Part shown: one piece after another, positions 5,298-63,944 of the stretch
How positions within the stretch are numbered: position 1 is the stretch's first letter
Layout of the letters: each line of letters begins with the position of its first letter
Assembly (NCBI RefSeq): GCF_023074835.1
Contig: NZ_JALLGW010000002.1
Coordinates: forward strand, 434,001-498,000
Direction of reading: 5' to 3'
DNA: 64,000 nt
Source of the DNA: Halomarina salina
GTDB lineage: Archaea > Halobacteriota > Halobacteria > Halobacteriales > Haloarculaceae
The notes under the pieces: generated by a model
Databases searched by the model: none
What the model was told of the DNA's origin: nothing
Seen by the model: the letters and a program-made list of their open reading frames with translations, nothing else
Position numbers and translations under genes: made by a program

Positions 5298-5307
5298 GGC
5301 TGTCCAG

Positions 5308-6120: not shown

Positions 6121-6148
6121 TGCAAGGTGCACGTATCGCTAATGAGGC

Positions 6149-6156: not shown

Positions 6157-6287
6157 TTTTCTTCTAGAGTTACTGGCACGTTCGGTGTCACTCCACCGCA
6201 CGGTCCACGACCACCATCGCACGACCACCACCGGACGGTCACCGCCATCGAGACAGCGTTTTGCACCCCGGAACCGAACGTCGAGGC

Positions 6288-7013: not shown

Positions 7014-7077
7014 ACGAGGTCGCGAGCGCCGTCGCTCACGACGACTGGAGCGAAAACTGAAAGAACGCGACGACGCG

Positions 7078-7596: not shown

Positions 7597-7669
7597 GGGC
7601 CGCCCTTCTCGGCCACGTCACAAAAGGATGTGTGACTGGCGTCGGTCGCAAAGTGAGTCGTCAGCGTGG

Positions 7670-7972: not shown

Positions 7973-8976
7973 GCCGACCGCCTCCGGGCGAGCAGCGCCG
8001 TGCCGAGCACCGCGACCAGCGCTACGACGACGCCGAAGCCGGGACCCTGACCGTCGGATTCGTAGGATTGGGTGCGGGCGGGGCGGTCGTCGGTCGGTTC
8101 GTCGGAGTCGAAGTCGCTCACCTGGAGGCCGGTGTCGGTGGTGGTCTGGTTCATGGGAATCGTCTTCGTGGGGTCGAGTGCTGCGGGGGCGCGGACGGTG
8201 TCGACCACGACGCCGTCGCGCAGCAACACGGCGTCGAGGTAGTAGTTGTACTGCGTCGGGACCGTCAGGTCGAGCGACGCGGTGGCGGTGCGGCCGGGGC
8301 GGACCTCGCTGACGTCGACGGTCGACCGGTCGGCGACGATGCCGGAGTCGACCTGCCGGGCCTTGACCAGCAGTTCGACGTCGCCGACCACGTCGTCGCC
8401 GGTGTTCGTCAGGAGGGCGTCGACGGCGAGCGTCGTCCGGTCGTCGTCGCTGGCGGCGATTTCGAACTCGACGGCGGGCATCGGCCCGTCGAACCGGTGG
8501 AACTGGAGGTCGCTCTCGGCGAACGCGGGCTGGAGCGACCCGACGCCCGAGACCGACCGGCGGGTCTCGACGATTCGGCGCTCGTTCTGGTAGACGATGG
8601 ACTCGACGCGGTAGTCGCCCGAGCGCGGGACGGTGATGTTCGCGGTGACCGCCCGTTCGCGGTCGCCGTCGACCGTGCCGACCGCGACGGTGCGCTCGGT
8701 CTCGACGAGGCCGGACGCGGCGTCGACGGCGCGGACGCGGAGGGTGACGTTGTCGGCCGCGCCGCCGCGGTGTTTCAGTCGGGTCTCGACGCGGAGGGTC
8801 GCCGTCTCGCCGGTGACCGCGCCGGTGCCGATGGCGAGGTCGCTCACGGCGAGCCTGCTGGGTGGTTCGGGGTCCTGCTGGGGGGCCGCGAGGACGCCCG
8901 GGACGGCCACCATCCCGACGGCCGAGACGAGGACCACCAGCGCGACGCCGGCAGCGAGGACCAGATTCCTATCCAT
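7969..8976 (-). CDS. PGF-CTERM-anchored surface protein (left copy)
   Basis: A 335-residue exported protein. An N-terminal signal (residues 1-30) is followed by two beta-rich Ig-like regions (about 40-160 and 165-270), a Thr/Asp-rich stalk and the C-terminal tripartite signal: PGFG, a hydrophobic helix and RRRSA. PGF-CTERM proteins are processed by archaeosortase A and lipid-anchored outside the cell. The two repeated regions suggest a ligand-binding or adhesive role. It is coupled to a downstream two-helix membrane protein. Confidence 0.82.
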   Translation of the reverse strand: MDRNLVLAAGVALVVLVSAVGMVAVPGVLAAPQQDPEPPSRLAVSDLAIGTGAVTGETATLRVETRLKHRGGAADNVTLRVRAVDAASGLVETERTVAVGTVDGDRERAVTANITVPRSGDYRVESIVYQNERRIVETRRSVSGVGSLQPAFAESDLQFHRFDGPMPAVEFEIAASDDDRTTLAVDALLTNTGDDVVGDVELLVKARQVDSGIVADRSTVDVSEVRPGRTATASLDLTVPTQYNYYLDAVLLRDGVVVDTVRAPAALDPTKTIPMNQTTTDTGLQVSDFDSDEPTDDRPARTQSYESDGQGPGFGVVVALVAVLGTALLARRRSA

Positions 8977-9115
8977 GCACCGACACTCGGGAGGTAGATG
9001 ATATGCTTTGTGTTCAACAGGTCACGACGAGGAACCATCCGGACGAGCGGCGCGAGGTCTCGTAGCGACCGACTCGTCCGGAGACCGGTGGCGAGCGTCG
9101 CCCGAATCGGCGGGG

Positions 9116-9120
9116 TTTAT
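9116..9120 (+). promoter_or_regulatory. TATA-like box for 67-residue membrane protein (left copy)
   Basis: The TTTAT core of GGGGTTTATCC lies about 20 bases before the ATG at 9139, consistent with a leaderless transcript. It supports that ATG over the longer in-frame extension that begins at 8998. Confidence 0.45.
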
Positions 9121-9138
9121 CCGGTCGCTCCACGAGCG

Positions 9139-9342
9139 ATGCGTATGGAAGCGTCAGTCGGGTCCGATATGGGCCTCGGCCTCGGACTGCTGTTCGGTGC
9201 GCTCGGCGTCGGCGGCGCGCTCGTGATGCTCGTCGCCGCGTTCGACGAGATGCAGGTGCTCGCGGGGATGGGGTTCGCCGCCGCGATGGTCGCCGGGACC
9301 GTCCTCATCGCCGCGTTGCATCTCGCCGAGCAACCCCGGTGA
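9139..9342 (+). CDS. small two-helix membrane protein (left copy)
   Basis: A 67-residue protein with two Gly/Ala-rich transmembrane helices (about residues 11-33 and 38-60) and almost no soluble part. The ATG at 9139 sits just behind a TATA-like box; the upstream in-frame sequence is Arg-rich and unlike haloarchaeal protein. Small membrane proteins of this type are widespread in haloarchaea, function unknown. Confidence 0.7.
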   Translation: MRMEASVGSDMGLGLGLLFGALGVGGALVMLVAAFDEMQVLAGMGFAAAMVAGTVLIAALHLAEQPR

Positions 9343-9388
9343 CCAGCGACCGCAGGCCGTAACCGTTAATCCGCGCAATCGCCTAGCG

Positions 9389-9622
9389 ATGGCTATGGCA
9401 GAGTTGAGCGAGGAAGACCAGCAGATCCTCGAGTACCTTCGCGACAGCGTCGCGAACGGTAACCAGTACTTCCGCGCCAAACGCATCGCGAAGGGAGTCG
9501 GTCTCACCGCGAAGCAGGTCGGTGCCAGACTGCCCCGACTCGCCGACAGCGCCGACGACGTCGACATCGAGAAGTGGGGTCGCGCCAAGTCCACCACGTG
9601 GCGAGTAACCCCCGGTGCCTGA
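9389..9622 (+). CDS. DUF7123-like small winged-helix-type protein (left copy)
   Basis: A 77-residue protein with helix-turn-helix character: EEDQQILEYLRD, then AKRIAKGVGLTAKQVGARLP, then a WRVTP strand at the end. This is the layout of a small winged helix. It resembles haloarchaeal DUF7123 proteins, predicted DNA-binding. ATG 9389 and ATG 9395 are both possible. An AT-rich CCGTTAATCC element lies about 20 bases upstream. Confidence 0.72.
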   Translation: MAMAELSEEDQQILEYLRDSVANGNQYFRAKRIAKGVGLTAKQVGARLPRLADSADDVDIEKWGRAKSTTWRVTPGA

Positions 9623-9666
9623 CCGGAACCCCACGGTAATTTTCCGCTGCGGTTCGTAGTACCCCC

Positions 9667-10092
9667 ATGACCGTACGCGTCGAACGGACGTTCGACCTCG
9701 ACGCCTCCCCCGAGGAGGTCTGGGCGTTCATCTCCGACCCGCGCAAGCGCGCCGCACCCATCAGCGTCGTCGACGAGTTCGAAGAGACGGGGGAAGGGAC
9801 CGCCGTCTGGCACGTGAAACTCCCCATCCCGCTGCTCAAACGGACCGCGTCCATCGAGACGGAGGAGACCGACGTCCGACCGCCGGAGTACGTCCGGTTC
9901 GTCGGGCGCTCGAAGGTGATGCGCGTCGTCGGCGAACACGAACTCACGCCCCACGGCGACGGCACGCGACTCACGAACCGCTTCACCGTCGACGGGAAGC
10001 TCCCCGGCGTCGAGAAGTACTTCGAGCGCAACCTCGACGGCGAACTCGACAACCTGGAGGACGCGCTCCGCCGCGACCTGGCGACCGCCTGA
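9667..10092 (+). CDS. SRPBCC/CoxG-like ligand-binding protein (left copy)
   Basis: A 141-residue START-like protein. The first strand VERTFDLDASPEEVWAFISD and the C-terminal long helix (YFERNLDGELDNLEDALRRD region) define the SRPBCC helix-grip fold, which binds small hydrophobic ligands. It ends seven bases before the nitrilase start, so the two are probably co-transcribed. The ligand is unknown. Confidence 0.8.
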   Translation: MTVRVERTFDLDASPEEVWAFISDPRKRAAPISVVDEFEETGEGTAVWHVKLPIPLLKRTASIETEETDVRPPEYVRFVGRSKVMRVVGEHELTPHGDGTRLTNRFTVDGKLPGVEKYFERNLDGELDNLEDALRRDLATA

Positions 10093-10098
10093 GTATCC

Positions 10099-10607
10099 AT
10101 GCGACTCGCCCTCGCGCAACTCGACGTCGAACCGACCGACGTGACGGAGAACGTCGACCGCGCGGTGGCCGCCGTCGACCGGGCGAGCGACCGCGGCGCG
10201 GACCTCGTCGTCCTCCCGGAACTGTTCACCGTCGGCTACTTCGCGTTCGACAGCTACGCCCGCAGCGCCGAGTCCCTCGACGGACCGACGCTCACCCGCC
10301 TCGCGGAGGCCGCCCGCGACCACGAGGTGGGCATCGTCGCGGGGAGCATCGTCGAGGACCTCGCGACGACCGACGGCGGCCCCGCCGAGGAGGGCCTCGC
10401 CAACACCTCCGTCTTCCTCGACCGGGCGGGCGACCGCCGCGCCGTCTACCGCAAGCGCCACCTGTTCGGCTACGACTCCGCGGAGTCCGACCTGCTCGTC
10501 GCGGGCGAGTCGCTGCCCACCGTGGACTTCGACGGGTTCACCGTCGCCACGACGACCTGTTACGACCTGCGCTTCCCCGAACTGTACCGCCGCCTCGTCG
10601 ACGACGG
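10099..10607 (+). pseudogene. 3'-truncated carbon-nitrogen hydrolase (nitrilase) gene
   Basis: The first 169 codons of the 265-residue nitrilase at 50017-50814, cut at the right end of the duplication. The catalytic triad (Glu41 in LPELF, Lys119 in YRKRH, Cys154 in TTCYDLRFPE) is retained, but about 95 C-terminal residues of the fold and dimer interface are lost. The frame stays open to 11022 by reading the opposite strand of the adjoining acyltransferase fragment. That would add about 138 unrelated residues and is unlikely to give a working enzyme. Confidence 0.85.
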
Positions 10608-39459: not shown

Positions 39460-39972
39460 TCACTCCTCCAGCAGGTGGTCGATGAGTCGGGTGAACCGGT
39501 CGACGAGTCTGCCCGGGAGCGACGGCGTCGCCCGGCGGAGCAGTCGGGCGGTCTCCTCGGGGCGGGCGAGTGCCAGCGTGACGCGGTTGCGCGCGTCGCG
39601 CTCCTTCCGGACGAGGTCCTGCTCGACGAGTCGGTCGAGGTGCCACTCCAGCGTGCTCCGGGCGATGCCGACTCGCTCGGCGACGGCGCTCGGGCGGGCG
39701 GTACCCTCGTCCAGCAGGGCGGCGACGACGTCCGACGCCGTCTCGCGGGAGAGCAGCGCCAGCGCCCGGCGCTCCCACTCGTCGTACGACGGCGGGTAGT
39801 AGTGCGTCCGGCCGTAGAGGCGCTGTTCGGCGATGGAGTCGGCCGACCGCAGACGGCCGAGGTGGTACTGGACCTGCCCCGGCGCGAGGTCCAGCGCCCG
39901 GACGAGTCCGTTGAAGTGGATACCCGGCGTCTCGCGGACCTGCGCGGCGACCCGGTCGCGCGTCTCGCTCAT
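39460..39972 (-). CDS. two-domain winged-helix transcriptional regulator
   Basis: A 170-residue protein with two winged helices: HFNGLVRALDLAPGQVQYHL (about 19-38) and ARPSAVAERVGIARSTLEWH (about 91-110). This tandem wHTH layout is common in haloarchaeal regulators. Its ATG overlaps the upstream membrane-protein stop (ATGA), forming a two-gene unit. The left edge of the 39.9-kb duplication copy lies inside this gene, which is intact here but cut by the window edge in the other copy. Confidence 0.85.
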   Translation of the reverse strand: MSETRDRVAAQVRETPGIHFNGLVRALDLAPGQVQYHLGRLRSADSIAEQRLYGRTHYYPPSYDEWERRALALLSRETASDVVAALLDEGTARPSAVAERVGIARSTLEWHLDRLVEQDLVRKERDARNRVTLALARPEETARLLRRATPSLPGRLVDRFTRLIDHLLEE

Positions 39973-40280
39973 CGGCGCTCACCCGTGGCTCGCGCGCGGT
40001 CCGACCGGACGGAGTAGACGGCGACCAGCAGGAACCCGACCAGCGCCACGTCGAGGACGTGTTCGAGCGTGTGGTGGACGCCGTCGGCGAGGAGTCCGTC
40101 GAGCATGAGCAGTCCGGCGACGGTCCGAGCGAGCAGCGTCGCGAGCGCGAGGAGGACGAGCAGGTACGACCGGGAGCGCCGCTGGACGTACGCGACGCCA
40201 GCGAGACCGACGAGCAGCAGCGACCCGCCGCCCGCGAGGACCAGCGAGAGCGCGAGTCCCGACCCGTGTCCTGCACCCAT
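39969..40280 (-). CDS. small three-helix membrane protein (right copy)
   Basis: Same 103-residue protein as at 51-362, here with its complete downstream partner, the winged-helix regulator, attached by the ATGA overlap at 39969-39972. This copy shows the full two-gene unit. Confidence 0.75.
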   Translation of the reverse strand: MGAGHGSGLALSLVLAGGGSLLLVGLAGVAYVQRRSRSYLLVLLALATLLARTVAGLLMLDGLLADGVHHTLEHVLDVALVGFLLVAVYSVRSDRARATGERR

Positions 40281-40359
40281 TGCTACCGACCGTAGCCGCT
40301 CGACCGGCTTTCGGGTTCTGGTTCGCGCGTCGAAACGGTCGGCAGTCGGTGGTTCGCAG

Positions 40360-41025
40360 TCAGAGGTCGGCGACCATCTCGCTCACGACCTGTAGCTCCT
40401 CCTCGTTGACGCCGTGGCCCATCGCCTCGTAGATGCGCTCGTCCACCTCGCCGCCCAGCCCCTCGAATATCTCGCGCGTCTCGTGGACCCGTTCGAGCGG
40501 GATGTGCGGGTCCCGGTCCGAACAGCCGAGGAAGACCGGCGTGCCGTCGAGCGACCCGTCGTAGTCCCGCGGCGTGTCGTCCGGGCCGACGACGCCCCCC
40601 GACAGTGCGGCGTGCCCGCCGCGACGCTGCGCGTTGCGCGCGAGGAACTCGCTGGAGATGCACGCCCCCTGCGAGAAGCCGACCGTCATCACCTTCTCGG
40701 GGGGGACGCCTGCGTCCGTTGCGGTCGCGATGGCGTCGGCGATAGCCTGTAACCCGGAGTCGAGACCGGGCTGGTTCGACTCGGTGGGTTCGAGGAAGGA
40801 GTTCGGGTACCAGGTGTTCCGCGCGGCCTGCGGCGCGAGCAGTGCCACGTCGTCTCGCCCCTGGCTCACCTGCCGAGCGAGGTCGAGGATGCTCCGCGCC
40901 GTCGCGCCGCGCCCGTGGATGGCGACGACGGCGGCCTCGGCCTCCGCCGGGTCCGCGCCGCCCGTCACGAGCGGCTGGGACTGGTGTGGTCCGTCCACCG
41001 GGTCGTCGGGACCGAGCGAACTCAT
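40360..41025 (-). CDS. phospholipase/carboxylesterase family hydrolase (right copy)
   Basis: Same 221-residue enzyme as at 442-1107, with Ser118 in GFSQG, Asp170 or Asp172 and His204 as the likely triad. It is divergent from the HxlR regulator gene here too. Confidence 0.85.
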   Translation of the reverse strand: MSSLGPDDPVDGPHQSQPLVTGGADPAEAEAAVVAIHGRGATARSILDLARQVSQGRDDVALLAPQAARNTWYPNSFLEPTESNQPGLDSGLQAIADAIATATDAGVPPEKVMTVGFSQGACISSEFLARNAQRRGGHAALSGGVVGPDDTPRDYDGSLDGTPVFLGCSDRDPHIPLERVHETREIFEGLGGEVDERIYEAMGHGVNEEELQVVSEMVADL

Positions 41026-41099
41026 CGGGCGTCCCTCCCGTCGGTCGACCGGTTTCGTAGTTGCATCGATAAACCTGGTTACGAGGCGAACTACTTTAA

Positions 41100-41117
41100 C
41101 CGTTCGCGGACGAACGG
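41100..41117. promoter_or_regulatory. perfect inverted repeat, candidate HxlR operator (right copy)
   Basis: CCGTTCG and CGAACGG separated by four bases, directly after the TATA-like ACTTTAA and 17 bases before the HxlR ATG at 41135. It is the counterpart of 1182-1199. Confidence 0.5.
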
Positions 41118-41134
41118 GACACCAGGTGACATCG

Positions 41135-41512
41135 ATGTCAGGGGAGCAGTACACCGAGGAGGCCTGTGTCGTCATCGACTCCATCGAGCAGATCGGCTCG
41201 CAGTGGCGACTGGTCGTCCTGCACGACCTGCAGGAGGGAGAGAAGCGGTTCAACGAACTGAAGCGCTCGACGGGAGCGTCCTCGCGGACGCTCTCGCGGG
41301 TGCTCAGCGACCTGCAGGAGACGGGCTTCGTCGACCGCAGACTGGAGGAGGACGCGCCGGTCGCGACGTACTACTCGCTGACGGAGAAGGGCTGTTCGCT
41401 CCGCCCCGTGTTCGAGGAGATAGAGTGCTGGGCGAACGACTGGCTCGACGAGAGCGTCGTGGACCCGGAGACGACGCCCGCCGAACCCGAGGCGGACGCG
41501 CCCGCCGAGTGA
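41135..41512 (+). CDS. HxlR-family winged-helix regulator (right copy)
   Basis: Same 125-residue regulator as at 1217-1594. If both copies are real, the cell has two identical genes for one regulator and two identical operators, so dosage rather than specificity would change. Confidence 0.85.
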   Translation: MSGEQYTEEACVVIDSIEQIGSQWRLVVLHDLQEGEKRFNELKRSTGASSRTLSRVLSDLQETGFVDRRLEEDAPVATYYSLTEKGCSLRPVFEEIECWANDWLDESVVDPETTPAEPEADAPAE

Positions 41513-41546
41513 CGTCGGGGGGCCCTACTGACGTACTGTTCGTCCC

Positions 41547-42131
41547 TCAGTCCGGGCGTTCGAGCCTGAACCGGTCCTCTGTCGTGCTGTAGTAGCTCCC
41601 CGCGAGGCGACCGACCGCGTCGAGTTTCCTGACGTCCGGTTTCCCGTCCGTGAGCAGGTCGTCGTCGACGTGGGCGTGGACCACCTCGCCGAACACGAGC
41701 GTCTGGCGGCCGATCTCCTGCGTGTCGTACAGTTCGCACTCCAGCACGACCGGCACGTCCGCGATTCGTGGTGCATCGACGCGCGTGGCGTCGACGCGTT
41801 CGAGGTGCGCGTGCTCGAACTCGTCCTCGCCGGGCGCGAGCGTCGCACTCGTCGCGTTCATCGCTTCGGCGAAGTCACGGGTGACGACGTGGACGGTGAA
41901 CGTCTCGCTCTCGATGGCGTTGTTCGCGCTGTCCTTGCGGTGTTCGCCGGTGCCGCCGGGGGCGAAGTAGACGACCGGCGGGTCGGGCGAGACGACGTTG
42001 AAGAACGAGTACGGCGCGAGGTTCGCCCGGCCCTCGGCGTCGTAGCTTCCGACCCACGCGATTGGTCGGGGGACGACGACACCGCCGAGCAGACGGTACG
42101 CCGACCCGAACTCCTCGGGTGCGCCCTCCAT
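41547..42131 (-). CDS. flavin reductase-like split-barrel protein (right copy)
   Basis: Same 194-residue FMN-binding protein as at 1629-2213, with PRPIAW and NLAPYSFFN motifs, abutting the VOC gene without a gap. Confidence 0.85.
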   Translation of the reverse strand: MEGAPEEFGSAYRLLGGVVVPRPIAWVGSYDAEGRANLAPYSFFNVVSPDPPVVYFAPGGTGEHRKDSANNAIESETFTVHVVTRDFAEAMNATSATLAPGEDEFEHAHLERVDATRVDAPRIADVPVVLECELYDTQEIGRQTLVFGEVVHAHVDDDLLTDGKPDVRKLDAVGRLAGSYYSTTEDRFRLERPD

Positions 42132-42755
42132 TCAGGCCCGCCCCTCGGAGACGTCCGTCCCGGTCGGTGCGTCGGGCAGGTCGTGCTCCTCGACCGGGAG
42201 GTCCAGCGCCTCCAGCGCGGTCCGGAGGTCCTCGCCGCGGACGTACTCCGCTTCCGCTTCGACGCGCGCTGCGTGGGCGCGGGCGAGCACCTCGGCGCGG
42301 CGGTCGTCCGGAATGGCGAACTTGTCGGCGACGAGTTCGATGGTCAGGCCGTTGTGGTCCCTGGTGTAGAGGCTGTGGAACGCGCCGCGGTCGAACTCCG
42401 AGAAGCGCCGCCCCGTCTCCCGCAGGTTCTCGCGGGTCTCGCGGAACTGTTCGGGGTCGAGGCGGAACGCGAGGTGGTGGACCGCGCCGACGTCGGGGTC
42501 CTGCCGTTCGACGGAGTCGCGCTCCTCGTCGCAGAAGAACGTGACGAGGCGGCCGTCGCCCGCGTCGAAGAACAGGTGAGTCTCGTCGGTACTGTCGAGG
42601 TTCGGCTGGCGCATCACGAGGCGCATGCCGAGGGTGTCGCGGTAGAACGCGACGGTGTCCTCGACGGTCGACCCGACGAGCGTGACGTGGTCGGTCCCCT
42701 CGACGTGGAGGGTGCTGTCCGGGCGGTCGGCGGTGACTGGGGGGTCGCTGCTCAC
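42132..42755 (-). CDS. VOC-family protein (right copy)
   Basis: Same 207-residue protein as at 2214-2837, with His-His-Glu metal ligands and the charged C-terminal extension. Confidence 0.8.
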   Translation of the reverse strand: MSSDPPVTADRPDSTLHVEGTDHVTLVGSTVEDTVAFYRDTLGMRLVMRQPNLDSTDETHLFFDAGDGRLVTFFCDEERDSVERQDPDVGAVHHLAFRLDPEQFRETRENLRETGRRFSEFDRGAFHSLYTRDHNGLTIELVADKFAIPDDRRAEVLARAHAARVEAEAEYVRGEDLRTALEALDLPVEEHDLPDAPTGTDVSEGRA

Positions 42756-42865
42756 GGGGGCGCTACGAGCCGACGGCGTATAGCCTCCCGTGGACGCGGC
42801 GGTTAGCGGGTGGCACGAGCGTCACCTGGATGGTGACGAGCGGACGAGTTCACCGCAGCGAACCG

Positions 42866-43711
42866 CTACCCGAGGTTCAGTATCTCGCGGGTCTCGTCGG
42901 GGGTCGCCACGGGTCGACCGAGCGTCTCGGCGACGGAGACCACTCGCTCGACGAGTTGCGCGTTGCTCTCGGCGAGTTCGCCGCGGCGGTAGTAGACGTT
43001 GTCCTCCAGGCCGACGCGGACGTGGCCGCCGAACAGCAGCCCCATCGTCGCGAACGGGAGCTGGTGGGGGCCGAACCCGAGCGTGTTGAACGACGCACCG
43101 TCGGGAAGGTCGTGGACGAGGGCGAGGAGGTTCTCGGGCGTCGGCCGCGTGAGCGTCCCCGACCCGAAGATGAGCGTCGCGTACACCGGGTCGTCGAGGT
43201 CGCGGCGCTCCAGCAGCTCGTAGGTCTCGGTCACCTGCCCGCCGTTGAACAGTTCGAGTTCGGGCTTGATTCCCCGCTCGCGCATCTCGTCGTACAGTCT
43301 GTCGATGGTGGCGCGCGTGTTCTCGCTCGTCAGGTGCTGGTAGCGGTTGAGCGGCCCCATGTCGAGGCTCGCCATCTCCGGGGCGGGGTCCGTGCGCAGG
43401 GGCTGGAGGCGCGCCTCGTCGGACGCGCCGGTCGCCCCCGTCGAGTGCTGGACGACGAGGTCCGGCGCGCGGGAGCGAATCTCGTCGTCGATGGCCTGGA
43501 AGCGCTCGGTCGAGAACGCTCGCTCGCCGTTGTCCGCGCGGGCGTGGACGTGGACGACGCTCGCGCCGGCCTCCCGGCAGGCGGCGGCCGCCTCGCCGAT
43601 CTCCGCGGGCGTCTCGGGGAGGTTCGGGTTCGCCTCCTTGCCGTGGACGCCGCCGGTGAGCGCGGCGGTGACGATGGCCGGCTCGCCCGCGAGGTAGTCG
43701 TCGTAGCTCAC
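42866..43711 (-). CDS. BKACE (DUF849) enzyme (right copy)
   Basis: Same 281-residue beta-keto acid cleavage enzyme as at 2948-3793. It overlaps the small Cys-containing gene by four bases. Confidence 0.88.
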   Translation of the reverse strand: MSYDDYLAGEPAIVTAALTGGVHGKEANPNLPETPAEIGEAAAACREAGASVVHVHARADNGERAFSTERFQAIDDEIRSRAPDLVVQHSTGATGASDEARLQPLRTDPAPEMASLDMGPLNRYQHLTSENTRATIDRLYDEMRERGIKPELELFNGGQVTETYELLERRDLDDPVYATLIFGSGTLTRPTPENLLALVHDLPDGASFNTLGFGPHQLPFATMGLLFGGHVRVGLEDNVYYRRGELAESNAQLVERVVSVAETLGRPVATPDETREILNLG

Positions 43712-43893
43712 TCCTGGTCCTCCGCCGCACGGTAGAACTCGCAGTCCGTCTCGTGGTCGAGGCTCCAGCGGTCGTTACAGATGTCGGCGCGCATCGGCTG
43801 GACGAACGCGTCGACGGCGGTGCAGTACGCTCGGTCGGTGTCGAACGACCGCTCCTCGTCCGCGTCGCGGTACTCCAGATACGGGCAGGTCAT
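43708..43893 (-). CDS. small Cys-containing acidic protein (right copy)
   Basis: Same 61-residue, four-Cys protein as at 3790-3975; probable first gene of the BKACE operon. Confidence 0.65.
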   Translation of the reverse strand: MTCPYLEYRDADEERSFDTDRAYCTAVDAFVQPMRADICNDRWSLDHETDCEFYRAAEDQE

Positions 43894-44030
43894 GGAACGG
43901 GGGACGCGCGAGTTCGCCAAAAGCGTTCGCTGATTGCGAGGTCACCGGGGTGTCGGGGACTCGGACGTGAGTAGGGCACCGCAGCCGACCACAGCGCACT
44001 TGTCGACGCGTCGAATCGTCCGGGTATCAC

Positions 44031-45215
44031 GTGTCCCTCCGCTCGTGGCCCCACCGCCGGACGGTGCTCGCCTGCTGCGTCGTCGCCTACTTCGGCGTCC
44101 GGTTCGCGGAGTACGTCCTCACAATCGTCTACCCGGACGTTCGGGCGGGCGTCGGCGTCTCCGACCTCACGCTCGGCGTCGGCTTCACCGCGAGCACGGT
44201 CACCTACGCGCTCGCCCAGTTGCCCAGCGGCGCGCTCGGTGACCGGTTCGGCGCACGACGGGTCGTGCTGGCGGCGCTCCTCGGGACTGCCGTCGCCAGC
44301 CTCCTCCTCGCGGGAGCCACCTCGGGGGCCGTGCTCGTCGGCGCGATGGCACTGCTCGGTGCGGTCGGCGGCGCGTACTACAGTCCGGCGACGGCGCTCC
44401 TCGCAGACCGGTTCGACGCCACCGGCCGCGCCATCGGCGTCCACCGACTCGGCGCGCAGGTGGTCGGCCTCACCGGCCCGCTGGTCGCGCTCGTCGGCGT
44501 GAGATACGGCTGGCGGGTCGCCCTCGCGTCGGGGGCGGCCGTCGCGCTCCCGGCGTTCGTCGGGTTCGCGCTGTTCGTCCGACCCCGTGGTCAGAGCGTG
44601 CCTCCGGAGTCGACGACCGCGCTCCGCGAACGACTCGACGCCGGGACGCTCCGGGAACTGCTCTCGCGACGACCCATCGCGGTGACGACGGCCGTCGCCG
44701 CCCTCGCGCAGTTCGCCGACACGGCCGCGTTCTCCTACCTCCCCGCCGTCCTGCGTACGTATCACGGGCTCTCGCCGACGCTCGCCGGGACGCTGTTCGC
44801 CGGCTACTTCGCCGTCCAGGCGGCCATCCAGGTGCCGACGGGGTGGCTCTCGGACCGGGTCGGTCGCGACCCGGTCGTCGTCGGGACGCTGCTGTCGGGC
44901 GTCGCCGGGTTCTGTCTGCTCGTCGTGGGCGACCGGACGGCCGTCGTCACCCTCGGCGTGGGGCTCGTCGGCGTCGGGATGGGATGGAGCCCCGCGGTGC
45001 AGTCGCGGTTCCTCGACCACCTCGACGCGGAGGAGTCTGGTCACGGGTTCGGCCTCGTCCGGACCGTCTACATCGGGTTCGCCGCGCTCTGTGGGCTGGT
45101 CGTCGGTGGGGCGGTGACCGTCTCCGGGTGGGGACTCGCGCTCTCGACGCTCGCCGGAGCGATGGCGCTGGCGACGCTGGTGGTCGTCGTGAGTCGGGTC
45201 GAGAGGAAGTGGTGA
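44031..45215 (+). CDS. MFS transporter (right copy)
   Basis: Same 394-residue transporter as at 4113-5297, GTG start. It lies between the BKACE operon (divergent) and the PAP2 gene (convergent); it could export or import a substrate of the BKACE pathway, but this rests on position only. Confidence 0.88.
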   Translation: MSLRSWPHRRTVLACCVVAYFGVRFAEYVLTIVYPDVRAGVGVSDLTLGVGFTASTVTYALAQLPSGALGDRFGARRVVLAALLGTAVASLLLAGATSGAVLVGAMALLGAVGGAYYSPATALLADRFDATGRAIGVHRLGAQVVGLTGPLVALVGVRYGWRVALASGAAVALPAFVGFALFVRPRGQSVPPESTTALRERLDAGTLRELLSRRPIAVTTAVAALAQFADTAAFSYLPAVLRTYHGLSPTLAGTLFAGYFAVQAAIQVPTGWLSDRVGRDPVVVGTLLSGVAGFCLLVVGDRTAVVTLGVGLVGVGMGWSPAVQSRFLDHLDAEESGHGFGLVRTVYIGFAALCGLVVGGAVTVSGWGLALSTLAGAMALATLVVVVSRVERKW

Positions 45216-45225
45216 GGCTGTCCAG

Positions 45226-46038
45226 TCAGTTCCCGCGCGCCACCGGGTTGAACCGGTCGGGGTCGACGCGCTGGGTGAACCAGTAGACGCCCGCCGCGAG
45301 CACGGCCGCGGCCAGCGCGTCGGTCAGCCAGTGGATACCGAGGTACAGCGTCGACAGCACGATGATGAACGCGAGTGCGCTCACCAGCCGCGAGTACTTC
45401 TCGCTCGCGTTCCGCGCGTACAGCGCCGCGAGCACCGAGAGCCCGGTGTGGAGGCTCGGGAACGCCTTGACCAGCGTGTCCGTCGCCATCACGCCGGCGC
45501 GGATGATGGGGTTGAAGTCCAGCATCAGCGGCCGCACCTCCAGCAGGTACAGCCCCGGAATGCCGACCGGGAACAGCAGGAAGAACGGCACGGCCAGCAA
45601 CACGAGGACGATGTACGCCATCGCGTAGCGACGCGCCTGTCCCTCGTCGTGTGCCTTCAGCTTGAAGTACGTGAACAGCACGATGAACGGGAAGCCCACG
45701 AGGTACGCGACGGTGAAGAACGCCGTCAGCGCGTACGCCGCCCACTCGGGGACGATAGCAGTCACCGACTGGAACGTGGCGACCGCCGGGCCTTCGAGTT
45801 CGTAGACGTAGTTGGTGAACGTTCGGTCGGCGTGGAACCGGTGTGCGAGTTCGTTGACGCAGAACGTCACGACCCACGCGAGACCGATGTACCGCCAGTC
45901 AGTTCGGAGGAACTCCCGGACGAACGCCACGGGGCGAAGGTCGGGGAGGAAGACGCGTGCGCCGACGAGGAAGGCGACCAGCGCGGCCGCTGTCATCCCC
46001 ACGACGTACTGCGTCTCCGGTTGGAGGGGGACCATCAT
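45226..46038 (-). CDS. PAP2-superfamily phosphatase (right copy)
   Basis: Same membrane phosphatase as at 5308-6120, with the double ATG and the upstream TATA-like box at 46067-46074. Confidence 0.82.
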   Translation of the reverse strand: MMVPLQPETQYVVGMTAAALVAFLVGARVFLPDLRPVAFVREFLRTDWRYIGLAWVVTFCVNELAHRFHADRTFTNYVYELEGPAVATFQSVTAIVPEWAAYALTAFFTVAYLVGFPFIVLFTYFKLKAHDEGQARRYAMAYIVLVLLAVPFFLLFPVGIPGLYLLEVRPLMLDFNPIIRAGVMATDTLVKAFPSLHTGLSVLAALYARNASEKYSRLVSALAFIIVLSTLYLGIHWLTDALAAAVLAAGVYWFTQRVDPDRFNPVARGN

Positions 46039-46205
46039 TGCAAGGTGCACGTATCGCTAATGAGGCTAAATATCTTTTCTTCTAGAGTTACTGGCACGTT
46101 CGGTGTCACTCCACCGCACGGTCCACGACCACCATCGCACGACCACCACCGGACGGTCACCGCCATCGAGACAGCGTTTTGCACCCCGGAACCGAACGTC
46201 GAGGC

Positions 46206-46931
46206 GTGCAAGTCGTGGGCTACGACCGCTCCGACCCCGCTCTCCGCCTCGCCAGCGACGGCGACCTCTCGCGGCAGGTGCTCGCGCCCGGTACGGACCT
46301 CGCGTACACGCTCGGCGAACGACACTGTGCGGGCCGCATCGACTACGAAACCGAGCGCCACGAGTTCTGTGCGAACCCGGCGGCACCCTACTGTCCCACG
46401 CACACCGTCCCCTGGTCGGTCCAGTCGAACGCAGACTCGACGGAGGAACACGCCGTCTACCTCGCCGCGTTCGCCCCCGACGTGTTCAAGGTCGGCGTCA
46501 CTCGCTCGTGGCGACTGGAGACGCGCCTCCGCGAGCAGGGGGCCGACCGCGCCGCGCACATCCACACCGTCAGCGACGGCCGCGTCGCCCGCGACCTGGA
46601 GGCCGAGATCGCCCGGGACGTCGGCGACCAGGTCCGCGTGGCGACGAAGGTGGCCGGACTCCACGAACAGGTCGACGAGACGGCGTGGGAGGCACTGCTG
46701 GCCGACCACCGCGTCGTCGAGCGCTTCGACTTCGACTACGGCGTCGACCTCGACGCGCGACCGGTCGCCGAGACGCTGCTGACGGGGACGGTCCGCGCGA
46801 CGAAGGGCCGAATCCTCCTGCTCGACCGCGGCGGCACGACGTACGCCGTCGACCTGCGGGACCTGCTCGGCTACGAGGTGCACGAGGAGGCGGACGGTCG
46901 CGCGCTCCAGTCGAGTCTCGGGAGTTTCTGA
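46206..46931 (+). CDS. DUF2797 family protein (right copy)
   Basis: Same 241-residue protein as at 6288-7013, with the Cys/His cluster and the VGVTR segment; GTG start. Confidence 0.75.
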   Translation: MQVVGYDRSDPALRLASDGDLSRQVLAPGTDLAYTLGERHCAGRIDYETERHEFCANPAAPYCPTHTVPWSVQSNADSTEEHAVYLAAFAPDVFKVGVTRSWRLETRLREQGADRAAHIHTVSDGRVARDLEAEIARDVGDQVRVATKVAGLHEQVDETAWEALLADHRVVERFDFDYGVDLDARPVAETLLTGTVRATKGRILLLDRGGTTYAVDLRDLLGYEVHEEADGRALQSSLGSF

Positions 46932-46995
46932 ACGAGGTCGCGAGCGCCGTCGCTCACGACGACTGGAGCGAAAACTGAAAGAACGCGACGACGCG

Positions 46996-47514
46996 TCAGT
47001 TACGCGATTCGAGCGCGTCGGCGATGCGTTCGAGTTCGCGGCGGACGTCGTGGACCTCGTCGCGGACCTTCCGGACCTCGCGGACGAGTTCCTCGTTGGC
47101 GCGGTCGTTCTCGCCGCGTTCGCGGGGGTCGGGGCCGCCGCCCATTCCGGGCGGACCGCCGCCCATGCCACCGGGGCCGCCGCCCATGCCGCCACCGCCC
47201 ATCCCGCCGGGGCCGCCGCCGCCCATCATACCGCCCATCATCTGGGCGAACGGGTTGCCGCCACCGCCCATCCCACCGGGACCACCCTCCTCGCCGCCGA
47301 ACGCCTCTTCGAGACGCTCCTCGGGCGAGCGGTCGTCGGGGCCGCCCTCGCCCTCGCGCTGTTCGGCGCGCTGCTGTCGGATCTCCTCGACGCGTTCGCG
47401 GAACGACTTCTCCTCGCCCGCGTCGTCGCCCGCCTCGTCGTCACCGCTCACGATTGGCTCTTCGTCGGCCGATTCGTCGGACGGCGTCTCCTCCGTCGGG
47501 TCGTCGTCACTCAT
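46996..47514 (-). CDS. Gly/Met-rich low-complexity protein (right copy)
   Basis: Same 172-residue protein as at 7078-7596. The long Gly-Met tract is the same length in both copies, which argues that the two copies are very recent or one sequence placed twice. Confidence 0.7.
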   Translation of the reverse strand: MSDDDPTEETPSDESADEEPIVSGDDEAGDDAGEEKSFRERVEEIRQQRAEQREGEGGPDDRSPEERLEEAFGGEEGGPGGMGGGGNPFAQMMGGMMGGGGPGGMGGGGMGGGPGGMGGGPPGMGGGPDPRERGENDRANEELVREVRKVRDEVHDVRRELERIADALESRN

Positions 47515-47587
47515 GGGCCGCCCTTCTCGGCCACGTCACAAAAGGATGTGTGACTGGCGTCGGTCGCAAAGTGAGTCGTCAGCGTGG

Positions 47588-47890
47588 CTACAGTCGACGG
47601 ACGACCAGCGAGATGCCGACCGCCGCCAGGAGCAGGACGCCGAGGTTGAACGCCGCCTGGTACAGCGGCTGGTAGCGCTCGCTCACCCACACGTCGATGG
47701 CGTGGGAGGCGCTGCCGTAGAAGTTCACCGTCGCCACCAGCGCCAGCAGGACGCAGAGACCGAGCGCGCCATAGAGGAGGTACGTCCGCAACTGGTCGGC
47801 GTCGAGCGCGGTCCGGGTGCGTGCGCTCGGGCCGTAGTCGGCGTTGGGTCGGTCGACGGCGTCCTCGCCGTCGCGCGTCTCGGAGCTCAC
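47588..47890 (-). CDS. two-helix membrane protein (right copy)
   Basis: Same 100-residue protein as at 7670-7972, coupled by the ATGA overlap to the PGF-CTERM protein gene. Confidence 0.72.
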   Translation of the reverse strand: MSSETRDGEDAVDRPNADYGPSARTRTALDADQLRTYLLYGALGLCVLLALVATVNFYGSASHAIDVWVSERYQPLYQAAFNLGVLLLAAVGISLVVRRL

Positions 47891-48894
47891 GCCGACCGCC
47901 TCCGGGCGAGCAGCGCCGTGCCGAGCACCGCGACCAGCGCTACGACGACGCCGAAGCCGGGACCCTGACCGTCGGATTCGTAGGATTGGGTGCGGGCGGG
48001 GCGGTCGTCGGTCGGTTCGTCGGAGTCGAAGTCGCTCACCTGGAGGCCGGTGTCGGTGGTGGTCTGGTTCATGGGAATCGTCTTCGTGGGGTCGAGTGCT
48101 GCGGGGGCGCGGACGGTGTCGACCACGACGCCGTCGCGCAGCAACACGGCGTCGAGGTAGTAGTTGTACTGCGTCGGGACCGTCAGGTCGAGCGACGCGG
48201 TGGCGGTGCGGCCGGGGCGGACCTCGCTGACGTCGACGGTCGACCGGTCGGCGACGATGCCGGAGTCGACCTGCCGGGCCTTGACCAGCAGTTCGACGTC
48301 GCCGACCACGTCGTCGCCGGTGTTCGTCAGGAGGGCGTCGACGGCGAGCGTCGTCCGGTCGTCGTCGCTGGCGGCGATTTCGAACTCGACGGCGGGCATC
48401 GGCCCGTCGAACCGGTGGAACTGGAGGTCGCTCTCGGCGAACGCGGGCTGGAGCGACCCGACGCCCGAGACCGACCGGCGGGTCTCGACGATTCGGCGCT
48501 CGTTCTGGTAGACGATGGACTCGACGCGGTAGTCGCCCGAGCGCGGGACGGTGATGTTCGCGGTGACCGCCCGTTCGCGGTCGCCGTCGACCGTGCCGAC
48601 CGCGACGGTGCGCTCGGTCTCGACGAGGCCGGACGCGGCGTCGACGGCGCGGACGCGGAGGGTGACGTTGTCGGCCGCGCCGCCGCGGTGTTTCAGTCGG
48701 GTCTCGACGCGGAGGGTCGCCGTCTCGCCGGTGACCGCGCCGGTGCCGATGGCGAGGTCGCTCACGGCGAGCCTGCTGGGTGGTTCGGGGTCCTGCTGGG
48801 GGGCCGCGAGGACGCCCGGGACGGCCACCATCCCGACGGCCGAGACGAGGACCACCAGCGCGACGCCGGCAGCGAGGACCAGATTCCTATCCAT
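47887..48894 (-). CDS. PGF-CTERM surface protein (right copy)
   Basis: Same 335-residue surface protein as at 7969-8976, with signal peptide and PGFG plus hydrophobic helix plus Arg C-terminal sorting signal. Confidence 0.82.
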   Translation of the reverse strand: MDRNLVLAAGVALVVLVSAVGMVAVPGVLAAPQQDPEPPSRLAVSDLAIGTGAVTGETATLRVETRLKHRGGAADNVTLRVRAVDAASGLVETERTVAVGTVDGDRERAVTANITVPRSGDYRVESIVYQNERRIVETRRSVSGVGSLQPAFAESDLQFHRFDGPMPAVEFEIAASDDDRTTLAVDALLTNTGDDVVGDVELLVKARQVDSGIVADRSTVDVSEVRPGRTATASLDLTVPTQYNYYLDAVLLRDGVVVDTVRAPAALDPTKTIPMNQTTTDTGLQVSDFDSDEPTDDRPARTQSYESDGQGPGFGVVVALVAVLGTALLARRRSA

Positions 48895-49056
48895 GCACCG
48901 ACACTCGGGAGGTAGATGATATGCTTTGTGTTCAACAGGTCACGACGAGGAACCATCCGGACGAGCGGCGCGAGGTCTCGTAGCGACCGACTCGTCCGGA
49001 GACCGGTGGCGAGCGTCGCCCGAATCGGCGGGGTTTATCCGGTCGCTCCACGAGCG

Positions 49057-49260
49057 ATGCGTATGGAAGCGTCAGTCGGGTCCGATATGGGCCTCGGCCT
49101 CGGACTGCTGTTCGGTGCGCTCGGCGTCGGCGGCGCGCTCGTGATGCTCGTCGCCGCGTTCGACGAGATGCAGGTGCTCGCGGGGATGGGGTTCGCCGCC
49201 GCGATGGTCGCCGGGACCGTCCTCATCGCCGCGTTGCATCTCGCCGAGCAACCCCGGTGA
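49057..49260 (+). CDS. small two-helix membrane protein (right copy)
   Basis: Same 67-residue protein as at 9139-9342, behind the same TTTAT box (49034-49038). Confidence 0.7.
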   Translation: MRMEASVGSDMGLGLGLLFGALGVGGALVMLVAAFDEMQVLAGMGFAAAMVAGTVLIAALHLAEQPR

Positions 49261-49306
49261 CCAGCGACCGCAGGCCGTAACCGTTAATCCGCGCAATCGC
49301 CTAGCG

Positions 49307-49540
49307 ATGGCTATGGCAGAGTTGAGCGAGGAAGACCAGCAGATCCTCGAGTACCTTCGCGACAGCGTCGCGAACGGTAACCAGTACTTCCGCGCCAAAC
49401 GCATCGCGAAGGGAGTCGGTCTCACCGCGAAGCAGGTCGGTGCCAGACTGCCCCGACTCGCCGACAGCGCCGACGACGTCGACATCGAGAAGTGGGGTCG
49501 CGCCAAGTCCACCACGTGGCGAGTAACCCCCGGTGCCTGA
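49307..49540 (+). CDS. DUF7123-like small winged-helix-type protein (right copy)
   Basis: Same 77-residue predicted DNA-binding protein as at 9389-9622. Confidence 0.72.
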   Translation: MAMAELSEEDQQILEYLRDSVANGNQYFRAKRIAKGVGLTAKQVGARLPRLADSADDVDIEKWGRAKSTTWRVTPGA

Positions 49541-49584
49541 CCGGAACCCCACGGTAATTTTCCGCTGCGGTTCGTAGTACCCCC

Positions 49585-50010
49585 ATGACCGTACGCGTCG
49601 AACGGACGTTCGACCTCGACGCCTCCCCCGAGGAGGTCTGGGCGTTCATCTCCGACCCGCGCAAGCGCGCCGCACCCATCAGCGTCGTCGACGAGTTCGA
49701 AGAGACGGGGGAAGGGACCGCCGTCTGGCACGTGAAACTCCCCATCCCGCTGCTCAAACGGACCGCGTCCATCGAGACGGAGGAGACCGACGTCCGACCG
49801 CCGGAGTACGTCCGGTTCGTCGGGCGCTCGAAGGTGATGCGCGTCGTCGGCGAACACGAACTCACGCCCCACGGCGACGGCACGCGACTCACGAACCGCT
49901 TCACCGTCGACGGGAAGCTCCCCGGCGTCGAGAAGTACTTCGAGCGCAACCTCGACGGCGAACTCGACAACCTGGAGGACGCGCTCCGCCGCGACCTGGC
50001 GACCGCCTGA
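49585..50010 (+). CDS. SRPBCC/CoxG-like protein (right copy)
   Basis: Same 141-residue protein as at 9667-10092. Here it is followed seven bases later by the complete nitrilase, so the intended operon is visible. Confidence 0.8.
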   Translation: MTVRVERTFDLDASPEEVWAFISDPRKRAAPISVVDEFEETGEGTAVWHVKLPIPLLKRTASIETEETDVRPPEYVRFVGRSKVMRVVGEHELTPHGDGTRLTNRFTVDGKLPGVEKYFERNLDGELDNLEDALRRDLATA

Positions 50011-50016
50011 GTATCC

Positions 50017-50814
50017 ATGCGACTCGCCCTCGCGCAACTCGACGTCGAACCGACCGACGTGACGGAGAACGTCGACCGCGCGGTGGCCGCCGTCGACCGG
50101 GCGAGCGACCGCGGCGCGGACCTCGTCGTCCTCCCGGAACTGTTCACCGTCGGCTACTTCGCGTTCGACAGCTACGCCCGCAGCGCCGAGTCCCTCGACG
50201 GACCGACGCTCACCCGCCTCGCGGAGGCCGCCCGCGACCACGAGGTGGGCATCGTCGCGGGGAGCATCGTCGAGGACCTCGCGACGACCGACGGCGGCCC
50301 CGCCGAGGAGGGCCTCGCCAACACCTCCGTCTTCCTCGACCGGGCGGGCGACCGCCGCGCCGTCTACCGCAAGCGCCACCTGTTCGGCTACGACTCCGCG
50401 GAGTCCGACCTGCTCGTCGCGGGCGAGTCGCTGCCCACCGTGGACTTCGACGGGTTCACCGTCGCCACGACGACCTGTTACGACCTGCGCTTCCCCGAAC
50501 TGTACCGCCGCCTCGTCGACGACGGCACCACCCTGGTCTGCGTCCCGAGCGCGTGGCCCTACCCGCGCGTCGAGCACTGGCGACTGCTCCCGCGAGTGCG
50601 GGCCGTCGAGAACCTGCTGTACGTCGGCGCGGCCAACGGCGTCGGGACGTTCGAGGACGCCAGCCTCTGCGGTCGCTCGACGGTGTACGACCCGTGGGGG
50701 ACGACGCTCGCCTCCTCCGACGACGACCCGACGCTCGTCGTCACGGACTGCGACCCCGCAGAGATAGCGCGAGTTCGCGAGGAGTTTCCCGCGCTCAGGG
50801 ACCGCGAGTTGTAG
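50017..50814 (+). CDS. carbon-nitrogen hydrolase (nitrilase superfamily), complete
   Basis: A 265-residue nitrilase-superfamily amidase. The triad is Glu41 (LPELF), Lys119 (YRKRH) and Cys154 (TTCYDLRFPE). The C-terminal part (CVPSAWPYPRVEHW, GAANGVGTFEDASLCGRST, PWG) is typical of omega-amidase/carbamoylase-like members. It hydrolyses a non-peptide C-N bond of a small amide; the substrate is unknown. The right edge of the duplication falls at codon 170, so only this copy is whole. Confidence 0.9.
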   Translation: MRLALAQLDVEPTDVTENVDRAVAAVDRASDRGADLVVLPELFTVGYFAFDSYARSAESLDGPTLTRLAEAARDHEVGIVAGSIVEDLATTDGGPAEEGLANTSVFLDRAGDRRAVYRKRHLFGYDSAESDLLVAGESLPTVDFDGFTVATTTCYDLRFPELYRRLVDDGTTLVCVPSAWPYPRVEHWRLLPRVRAVENLLYVGAANGVGTFEDASLCGRSTVYDPWGTTLASSDDDPTLVVTDCDPAEIARVREEFPALRDREL

Positions 50815-61853: not shown

Positions 61854-62831
61854 TCAGAACGTGTCCAGTACGCCAAGCATCCGCTCTTCGGTCTCGCGGT
61901 CCGGACCGTTCTCGCGGCCCTCGCCGTCGGGGTGGGCGGCGACCGTCTCCGCGACGGACTCGGCGACGGCCGTCGGCTCCCAGCCCAGCGCTTCGAGTTT
62001 GTCGGTCGGGAGGACGTGCGGGTAGTCGAGGTACAGCGGGAACTCGTCGGGCGCGAGGTCGACGGCGTCGAGTTCCCGGTCGCCGACGCGGACGGTCTCC
62101 ACGTCGCGGCCGACCGCCTCGGCGATGGCGTCTATCCACTCGGTCAACAGCGGGAGCGTGTGCGTCCCGACGTTGTACGCCTCGCCCGCCTCGCCCGCCT
62201 CGGCGATAACCCGCAGCGCGCTCGCGACGTCCTCGACGTAGACGAGGTGGCGCAGTTCGGAGTACGGGACGAGCAGCCGGTCGTGGTTCTTCACGCGGTC
62301 GATCCAGTAGTCGAAGCGGCGCGTGTAGTCGTGCGGACCGAACACGATGGGTGGGCGGATGGACATCGCCCGGACGCCCCGGTCGGCGGCGGCGAAGACG
62401 GCGCGGTCGCCCTCGGCCTTCCGCGGGCCGTAGGTCTCGTCCTCGTCGCTGGTCGCCTGGTCGGGCGTGCAGTCGTGGAGCGGCGTGTCGTCCTCGCGTT
62501 TCGGCGCTTCGTCGACGCCGTACGCCGCGCCCGAGGAGATGTAGACGTAGGCGTCGCAGTCGGCGAAGATCTGGGTCGCGGCGCGGACGTCCTTCGGGTA
62601 GTAGGCGACGCAGTCGACCACCACGTCGGGGTCGACCTCCATTTTGGCGCGTTCGAGCGCCGAGTCGGTCGTGCGGTCGCCCTCGACGTGGCGCACGTCG
62701 TCGTTCTCGGCGAACGGGTTCTCGTGGCTCCCCCGATTGAAGATGGTCACGTCGTAGCCGTGGTCGAGGAACTCCTCGACGGTGGGGCGGCCGATGAAGC
62801 GCGTGCCGCCGATGATGAGCACCGAGTCCAT
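61854..62831 (-). CDS. NAD-dependent epimerase/dehydratase family protein (atypical SDR)
   Basis: A 325-residue extended/atypical short-chain dehydrogenase. The nucleotide-binding motif GGTRFIG (about residues 8-14) and active-site YGPRKAEGD (Tyr-x3-Lys) are present. The C-terminal sugar-binding part (VDLAPDEFPLYLDYPHVLPTDKLEALGWEP) is also intact. It probably acts on an NDP-sugar or is a CSP41-like RNA-associated relative. It is the intact paralogue of the broken gene next upstream. The MaoC-like gene follows on the same strand. Confidence 0.87.
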   Translation of the reverse strand: MDSVLIIGGTRFIGRPTVEEFLDHGYDVTIFNRGSHENPFAENDDVRHVEGDRTTDSALERAKMEVDPDVVVDCVAYYPKDVRAATQIFADCDAYVYISSGAAYGVDEAPKREDDTPLHDCTPDQATSDEDETYGPRKAEGDRAVFAAADRGVRAMSIRPPIVFGPHDYTRRFDYWIDRVKNHDRLLVPYSELRHLVYVEDVASALRVIAEAGEAGEAYNVGTHTLPLLTEWIDAIAEAVGRDVETVRVGDRELDAVDLAPDEFPLYLDYPHVLPTDKLEALGWEPTAVAESVAETVAAHPDGEGRENGPDRETEERMLGVLDTF

Positions 62832-62902: not shown

Positions 62903-63944
62903 CTAGTCCGTCAGCGCGGCGATGACCTGCTCCTCGCGGTCGCGGCCGGGGTCGTACTCCTCGCCGGTCAGGCCACGCTCGCGGTGAGACCGTGCGGTCT
63001 CGCGGACCGCCGCCTCGGGCGGCGTCGAGTCCCAGCCTAACGCGTGGAGCTTCCCGGTCGCGGCGAGCGCCGGCGACGGCGTGTAGAGCGGGAAGTCGTC
63101 GGGTGCGAGGTCGCTGCGCGCGAGGTCGTGTTCGCTGGCGTGGACCACCTCGACGTCCGCGTCGAGCGCCTCGGCCGCCAGGTCGAGCGAGCGTTCGAGC
63201 GTCATCGCGTCGCGGTCGGCGACGTTCGTGAGAGCGAAGCTCTCACGAGCCAACCGGAACGCGGAGCGTTCCGGTGACGTTGTACGCCTCGCCCGGCTCC
63301 CCCTCCTCGGCGACGATGCGGAGCGCACGGGCCACGTCGCCGACGTACGCTCGGTGGAACAGGCCCCCGCCGTCCCCGGGCACGAGCACGCGGTCGTACT
63401 CCGCGACGCGGTCCACCCAGTAGGCGTAGCGCTCGGTGTAGTCGTGGGGGCCGTAGACGAGCATCGGCCGGACGGCCATCGCGTTCACGCCGTCGGCCGC
63501 GGCCTCGAAGACGGCGCGGTCGCCCTCGGCCTTCCGCGGGCCGTACGTCTCCATCGACTCGTCGTCTGCCTGCTCGTCGGTGCAGTCGTGCAGGGGCGTC
63601 TCGTCCTCGCGGAGCGGGACGTCCCCCGCTGCGTAGGCGCTGCCGCTGGAGACGTAGACGTAGGCGTCGCAGTCGGCGAACGCCTCGGTCGCCGCGCGGA
63701 CCTGTCGCGGGTGGTACGCACAGAGGTCAATGACGACGTCCGGGTCGGCCGTCTCGCGGGCACGGTCGAGCGTCTCGCGGTCGTTCCGGTCGCCCTGGAC
63801 GTTCGAGACGCGCTCCTCCTCGGCGAACGGGTCGTCGCTCTCGCCACGGGTGACGGTCGTCACGTCGTAGCCGCTGGCGAGCAGTTGCGCGACGGTGTGG
63901 CGGCCGATGAACCGCGTCCCGCCGACGGTGAGTGCGGTGGGCAT
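62903..63944 (-). pseudogene. epimerase/dehydratase paralogue interrupted by a hairpin insertion
   Basis: A second atypical SDR with GGTRFIG at the start (63944) and the ending LAPDDFPLYTPSPALAATGKL, paralogous to 61854-62831. The first part (63243-63944) runs to EAYNV, then reads through foreign hairpin sequence to a stop. The second part (to 62903) resumes as NVADRDAMTLERS in another frame. Deleting 55 bases (element plus one copy of the flanking 6-base repeat) joins EAYNV to ADRDAMTLE in frame. The interruption falls between the catalytic and substrate-binding parts, so the protein is probably inactive. Confidence 0.85.
63221..63281. mobile_element. 49-base twin-hairpin element with 6-base target duplication
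   Basis: Direct repeats GACGTT at 63221-63226 and 63276-63281 flank 49 bases holding two perfect hairpins. TCGTGAGAGC/GCTCTCACGA has loop GAA (63226-63248, its first base shared with the repeat). ACCGGAACGC/GCGTTCCGGT has loop GGA (63253-63275). Four bases (GCCA) separate them. Excising 55 bases restores the host reading frame exactly. It codes for nothing and carries no transposase, so it would be mobilised in trans, like REPIN or MITE elements. Confidence 0.8.

Follow-up and report, generated by a model that had tools for sequence, protein, structure and literature searches.

The hairpin pair that interrupts an epimerase gene of Halomarina salina is a 55-bp transposase-free mobile element composed of two adjacent hairpins, and is one member of a family that is found across the haloarchaea. 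Both the reality of this insertion, which lies in the 64,000-nucleotide stretch of DNA analysed here (the window), and the existence of the family are near certain. Our best reading, which draws on the anatomy of the copies, is that they represent a pan-haloarchaeal transposase-free hairpin element that inserts 3' of CGRCG and is probably moved as single-stranded DNA.

The insertion in the epimerase gene

The two perfect 10-bp stems with 3-nt loops (GAA and GGA) reported in the preliminary description are present on the forward strand at 63226-63248 (hairpin A, stem TCGTGAGAGC/GCTCTCACGA, loop GAA) and at 63253-63275 (hairpin B, stem ACCGGAACGC/GCGTTCCGGT, loop GGA), the assignments being based on stem search, DNA folding and covariation. 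The 10-bp stems are separated by the spacer GCCA (63249-63252, forward strand), which comparison of copies places within a 6-nt spacer, AGCCAA, between conserved 9-bp stems. Folded as DNA, the 55-nt strand has a value of -23.4 kcal/mol (z = -6.5). In a 400-kb sample of the host genome, hairpins with 10-bp stems and 3-nt loops numbered 8, compared with 0 in shuffles, and those with 9-10-bp stems and 3-nt loops numbered 23, compared with 4 in a shuffled copy of the 400 kb; the latter hairpin class is therefore enriched genome-wide in the host.

The disrupted gene lies on the minus strand and encodes a NAD-dependent epimerase/dehydratase (Pfam Epimerase, PF01370, E = 2.8e-29). From its 5' part (63280-63944) the open reading frame runs into the insertion and terminates in EAYNVTGTLRVPVGS and a stop, the frame being broken exactly at the hairpins, as had been claimed, and the 3' part (62903-63224) is out of frame past the insertion. 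The EAYNV site is uninterrupted in the intact adjoining paralogue (61854-62831, minus strand). Orthologues in relatives carry an empty site, e.g. GAGGCGTACAACGTC-GCCGACCGC, as seen in Halomarina oriensis (L042, with a difference at a third codon position), H. rubra (L043) and genome G001 (L068), and AACGTC is single and uninterrupted at the orthologous site in these and in congeneric genomes. Since relatives have AACGTC once, the inserted length is 55 bp, which is exactly the frameshift in the gene. The 55-bp insertion that breaks the epimerase frame is genuine, in agreement with the earlier proposal of a mini-element inserted in this gene.

The mobile unit spans 63225-63279 on the forward strand and consists of TT, hairpin A, the 6-nt spacer, hairpin B and GACG, as defined by the empty sites, by 34 independent copies and by other pairs of filled and empty sites. 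It follows a GACG target at 63221-63224 (forward strand; family consensus CGRCG, with the constraint lying 5' of the element only, as judged from the flanks of the 34 copies), and its own right end, GACG at 63276-63279 (forward strand), is target-like. Thus, with respect to the extent of the element, the insertion of 55 bp that had been described holds, but the GACGTT repeats are not its boundaries. Elsewhere in the window, positions 1-10607 and 39919-50525 are 100% identical direct repeats of at least 10,607 bp, 39.9 kb apart, the left one of which extends beyond the start of the window.

Copies, folded form and effects on genes

Searches of the host genome with each hairpin and with the spacer revealed several further copies, the layout of which is shared despite different stems, i.e. 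CGTT-[9-3-9]-6 nt-[9-3-9]-(T/G)GACG. A covariance model built from ten copies, the E-values of which are rough, detected some 20 good copies in the host genome, where counts derive from searches and sampled stretches, and matched 57 of 60 related genomes. Thus the search for further copies, which the preliminary description had called for, was answered with many, both in the host genome and in other haloarchaea. In a phylum-wide sample, 31 of the 33 Halobacteriales matched at E <= 1e-8; outside the Halobacteriales one of about 164 genomes did so, i.e. G536, with a poor look-alike (L347, G536:C42:10125-10179) that is of low GC content, has two or three adjacent hairpins and differs at its ends. 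All 60 plasmid records matching the type-B consensus are haloarchaeal, as are all three plasmid records matched by the window element. No match to the type-B consensus was found among phage records, no copies in the Haloquadratum plasmid pL47, and no match to the Rfam 15 covariance models over the element at four loci.

Counting against the mobile-element reading, some genomes owe part of their copy number to larger repeats in which the element travels as a passenger, and counts in those genomes are inflated accordingly. The Haloquadratum C23 genome (G091) has about 20-25 twin-hairpin copies, most of which occupy a single site close to the 3' end of elements of the tnpB type. Many copies in G137 and G076 (L348-L364), together with L116 and L118, lie within a longer, dispersed repeat of intergenic DNA (GGACTSAAAGGGGC ... 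GCAAGCACCGCAGCGA ...), an empty-like version of which is present at L016. This repeat may spread by itself and is possibly the cause of the strand bias observed for the best copies, which are on the plus strand in 9 of 10 cases in G137:C1 and on the minus strand in 9 of 9 cases in G076:C7-C9. A composite, TTTTTCATS-(G/A)ACG[twin hairpin]TTTTT-CGAG, recurs in several genera (L120, L121, L123, L148, L160, L163, L166, L324 and L330), and may be an intergenic repeat in which the element has become fixed. Divergent relatives in Haloquadratum (L260-L262) and in G132 (L365-L366) end in GAACG, not GACG, an example being GACG followed by TTGTCAGACTGCGTCTGACAGCCCACCAGACGGAGTCTGGTGAACG.

Among 93 distinct copies, the alignment of which was fitted to the covariance model and is thus biased towards it, 98.9% of stem cells are paired, and for 15 of the 18 pairs both partners have changed in at least one copy. 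Two-sided changes occupy 256 cells, compared with 59 in shuffles (0 of 500 as high) and 9-22 in slid controls, and a ten-seed MAFFT alignment gave a similar covariation picture. G-U pairs are rare in the stems, which would fit palindromic DNA better than RNA under selection. The loops are of 3 nt in 91 of 98 copies for hairpin A and in 94 of 98 for hairpin B, with GNA or its complement TNC accounting for 67 of the 91 and 54 of the 94 triloops, respectively, against a chance expectation of one in eight. DNA mini-hairpins of the GCGAAGC type are extraordinarily stable, and this stability extends to GNA loops. The compensatory changes, the near absence of G-U pairs and the GNA/TNC triloops, all read from the sequences, point to DNA as the form that folds. 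Between near-identical hairpins the loop triplet can be inverted (GAA vs TTC), as in L120 compared with L121, and beside L125 compared with L126.

Copies of 55 bp break the reading frame in the window epimerase, in an ABC-transporter gene of G002 and in one stress-protein gene of G001. In a second G001 stress-protein gene, a copy of 54 bp keeps the frame and occupies the codon at which the frameshifting one lies, L146 and L306 being different twin-hairpin copies at one codon (TDG/S) of two stress-protein genes. In the glycyl-tRNA synthetase gene of the host, the product of which matches TIGR00389 (E = 4e-194), a 57-bp copy leaves the frame open and adds 19 residues (...VTVDVRETRSDSRANQNAERSGDDETYAV...). 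This in-frame copy shows that such elements can lengthen essential proteins by peptides. Rickettsia palindromic elements likewise add peptides to proteins.

Ends and insertion site

Insertion occurs 3' of CGRCG with nothing being duplicated, and the inserted unit, TT...GACG, is usually of 55-57 bp. In the set of 34 copies, chosen for the unrelatedness of their flanks, the sequence to the left has C at -5 in 22, G at -4 in 27, A or G at -3 in 32, C at -2 in all 34 and G at -1 in 32, whereas on the right there is little constraint (at most 0.39 bit per site); the element begins with TT in 30 of the 34 and ends with GACG in 32. The GACGTT hexamers that flank the window copy had been interpreted as a 6-bp target duplication. 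The flanking 6-mers of the family give no sign of one: identity between left and right hexamers is 3.68 of 6, compared with 3.61 in shuffled pairs (245 of 2000 shuffles as high), and the two hexamers are fully identical in 2 of 34 independent copies. The presence of GACGTT on both sides is a coincidence of the window site.

Empty sites are available at further loci as well as at the epimerase gene. With a slash marking the point of insertion, they read GACG/TT for the window epimerase, GACG/AC for the glycyl-tRNA synthetase and AACG/AC for the G002 ABC-transporter copy, the orthologues of which are intact in G007 and in the host genome; that of the G001 universal-stress-protein copy, GACG/GG, was reconstructed from the restored TDGS motif and canonical frame. 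Copies at L156, L159, L164 and L174 split the end hairpin of an ISNph5-like IS (CCCGCC...GGCG/GG), and comparison of L179 with L174 gives the IS empty site GGCG/CT. Because these IS targets read GGCG and the right junctions GACG (GATG in L179), RCG on the left belongs to the target and GACG on the right to the element. The element end GACG is itself a target and so able to receive another copy; arrays with a 55-57-bp period are thus expected, and tandem arrays of this period, joined at the element right end, occur at L317, L333 and other loci. A preference for foldable targets found no support, since empty targets fold no more than control sites (p = 0.48).

The two junctions have between 2 and 6 nt in common, and CG is nearly always among these letters. 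This shared CG is what would be expected if a serine or tyrosine site-specific recombinase were to insert a double-stranded circle via a CG crossover core, with the hairpins as its binding sites. A core with arms should, however, constrain both sides, whereas the target constraint extends to -5 on the left only, and covariation between the arms preserves Watson-Crick pairing, as in folded strands; we consider recombinase action to be distinctly unlikely. The junction homology, along with the inversion of loops between otherwise similar copies, is also consistent with spread through template switching at hairpins, or through microhomology-mediated repair there, no dedicated enzyme being required, but the near constancy of the TT and GACG ends is as enzymatic cleavage would give, and makes such an origin highly unlikely.

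Mobilisation and relationship to known elements

The one-sided target, the lack of duplication, the near-terminal hairpins and the target-like right end together give the element its likeness to the IS200/IS605 family (e.g. IS608 and ISDra2), members of which have hairpins near both ends, insert 3' of a short target and have target-like letters at the right end; in these elements the hairpins bound by TnpA are subterminal, and insertion leaves the flanking target tetranucleotide unduplicated (PMC6006769). By the logic of IS200/IS605 HUH (Y1) transposition, an enzyme acting in trans would recognise the folded top strand as single-stranded DNA, would cleave on the 3' side of GACG at the right end and of RCG at the left end, and would join the excised strand behind RCG elsewhere. 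On balance, the anatomy favours a single-strand transposition mechanism of this type. The element differs from the IS200/IS605 family in its lack of tnpA, in its length of only 55 bp and in the position of hairpin A, 1-2 nt from the left end, and no IS608-like guide tetranucleotide was recognised by eye. Neither an encoded Y1 TnpA nor a related longer coding element with TT-hairpin...hairpin-GACG ends was found in the 1.82 Mb of DNA examined; two cases of apparently separated ends, considered as a long element, are instead neighbouring copies.

The distribution of candidate enzymes does not follow that of the copies. A PF01797 gene is present in 28 of 60 relatives and shows no relation to copy number (Mann-Whitney p = 0.46), being absent from the copy-rich genomes G001, G002, G007, G076 and G132, and a Y1 gene is absent from 5 of 10 copy-rich genomes tested. 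Given that G001, G002, G076 and G132 are copy-rich without PF01797, and given the p value, the enzyme is either supplied only occasionally or of another type. That it is of a wholly unknown type is a possibility to which we give limited credence. The fuller proposal, that this is an archaea-specific, haloarchaeal-order-wide paired-hairpin class, which an enzyme unrelated to known Y1 TnpA/RAYT transposases mobilises in single-stranded form and which can be domesticated in frame in essential genes, is likewise put forward tentatively.

By descriptive criteria, the closest known kind of element is the PATE, and the family may be called loosely PATE-like, without a demonstrated IS605 parent. The PATEs of Haloquadratum walsbyi were defined in 2011 as IS605-related elements with palindromes near their ends, no inverted terminal repeats and no target duplication (PMC3119063). 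The element studied here is likewise haloarchaeal and non-coding, with near-terminal palindromes and neither inverted terminal repeats nor duplication (Table 4 of PMC3119063), and its 55 bp compare with 52 bp for terminal-only PATEs (PMC3119063). These similarities, together with copies located 100-140 bp upstream of tnpA, are what might be displayed by a minimal IS605-type derivative (a terminal-only PATE) that depends for its movement on an ordinary haloarchaeal IS200/IS605 TnpA. However, IS copies without the hairpins exist, so that the tnpA-adjacent copies are insertions into IS end hairpins; the IS elements concerned end in TCAC-type sequences, not GACG; deletion of an IS core via repeats would leave one hairpin, not two different ones; and there is no correlation with Y1 genes. 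Derivation from an IS605-type element thus appears unlikely. In PATEs, the palindromes show a relationship to IS605 ends and are positioned 20-50 bp inside the termini, whereas here the hairpins are 1-5 nt from the TT and GACG ends; the DNA examined contained no related IS605 ends, and the IS ends at the five tnpA loci inspected are unrelated to the element. The SMRs, which have inverted terminal repeats and no duplication, and the mobilisation of which has been called enigmatic, were described in the same study (PMC3119063). SMR-A resembles the element in being transposase-free, without target duplication, often within IS605-type elements and unexplained in its mobilisation (PMC3119063). Identity with SMR-A was rejected by comparison with 108-116-bp repeats recovered from 400 kb of Haloquadratum C23 and taken as SMR-A by description, i.e. 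by size and end repeats, since these have inverted terminal repeats, not twin hairpins, whereas the element is of 55 bp with TT/GACG ends.

With REP sequences, REPINs and their RAYT enzymes, the element shares two neighbouring hairpins, short length, dispersal and, probably, movement as a single strand (PMC3116915, PMC6006769); the high copy number and the disruption of genes also fit a bacterial-type REPIN mobilised by a RAYT. A REPIN, however, is an inverted pair of one REP, tagged GTAG and accompanied by a RAYT in its genome. Here the stems of hairpins A and B differ and the spacer is asymmetric (AGCCAR / GCACA / GCCCA), there are no inverted copies and no inverted symmetry, the ends are (RCG)TT/GACG without a GTAG or GTGG tag, and copy number is unrelated to Y1/RAYT-type transposase genes, which half of the copy-rich genomes tested lack. 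In addition, RAYT-type subclasses are reported from Bacteria only, with typical IS200 TnpA being the only form reported from Archaea (PMC6006769). REPIN/RAYT identity was rejected on these grounds, as extremely improbable. Of the archaeal paired-hairpin element that had been envisaged, the insertion, the absence of a transposase and the many copies are thus retained; the 6-bp duplication and REPIN membership are not. That the element works like a REPIN is kept as a possibility; that it is one has been dropped. CGTC-tagged REPs are similar in having CGTC by the hairpin (here on the bottom strand), in being paired, in having no known dedicated transposase and in their intragenic copies, but their loops are of 4-5 nt, their dimers head-to-head and their first stem positions A-T, in contrast to the 3-nt loops and asymmetric pair seen here (PMC3733652); the survey found them in Bacteria only, with none reported from Archaea (PMC3733652). 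The open-access literature searched yielded no published description of the twin-hairpin family or of archaeal REPs.

The results bear on how small hairpin elements are mobilised in the haloarchaea. Paired-hairpin mini-elements (REPINs) with RAYT enzymes have been described as bacterial; the family reported here is an order-wide haloarchaeal counterpart, which is open to test because its ends, its target and its clean empty sites are defined. It also sharpens an existing puzzle, in that many haloarchaeal mobile hairpin elements are without an explained source of transposase, the mobilisation of SMRs having been called enigmatic (PMC3119063).
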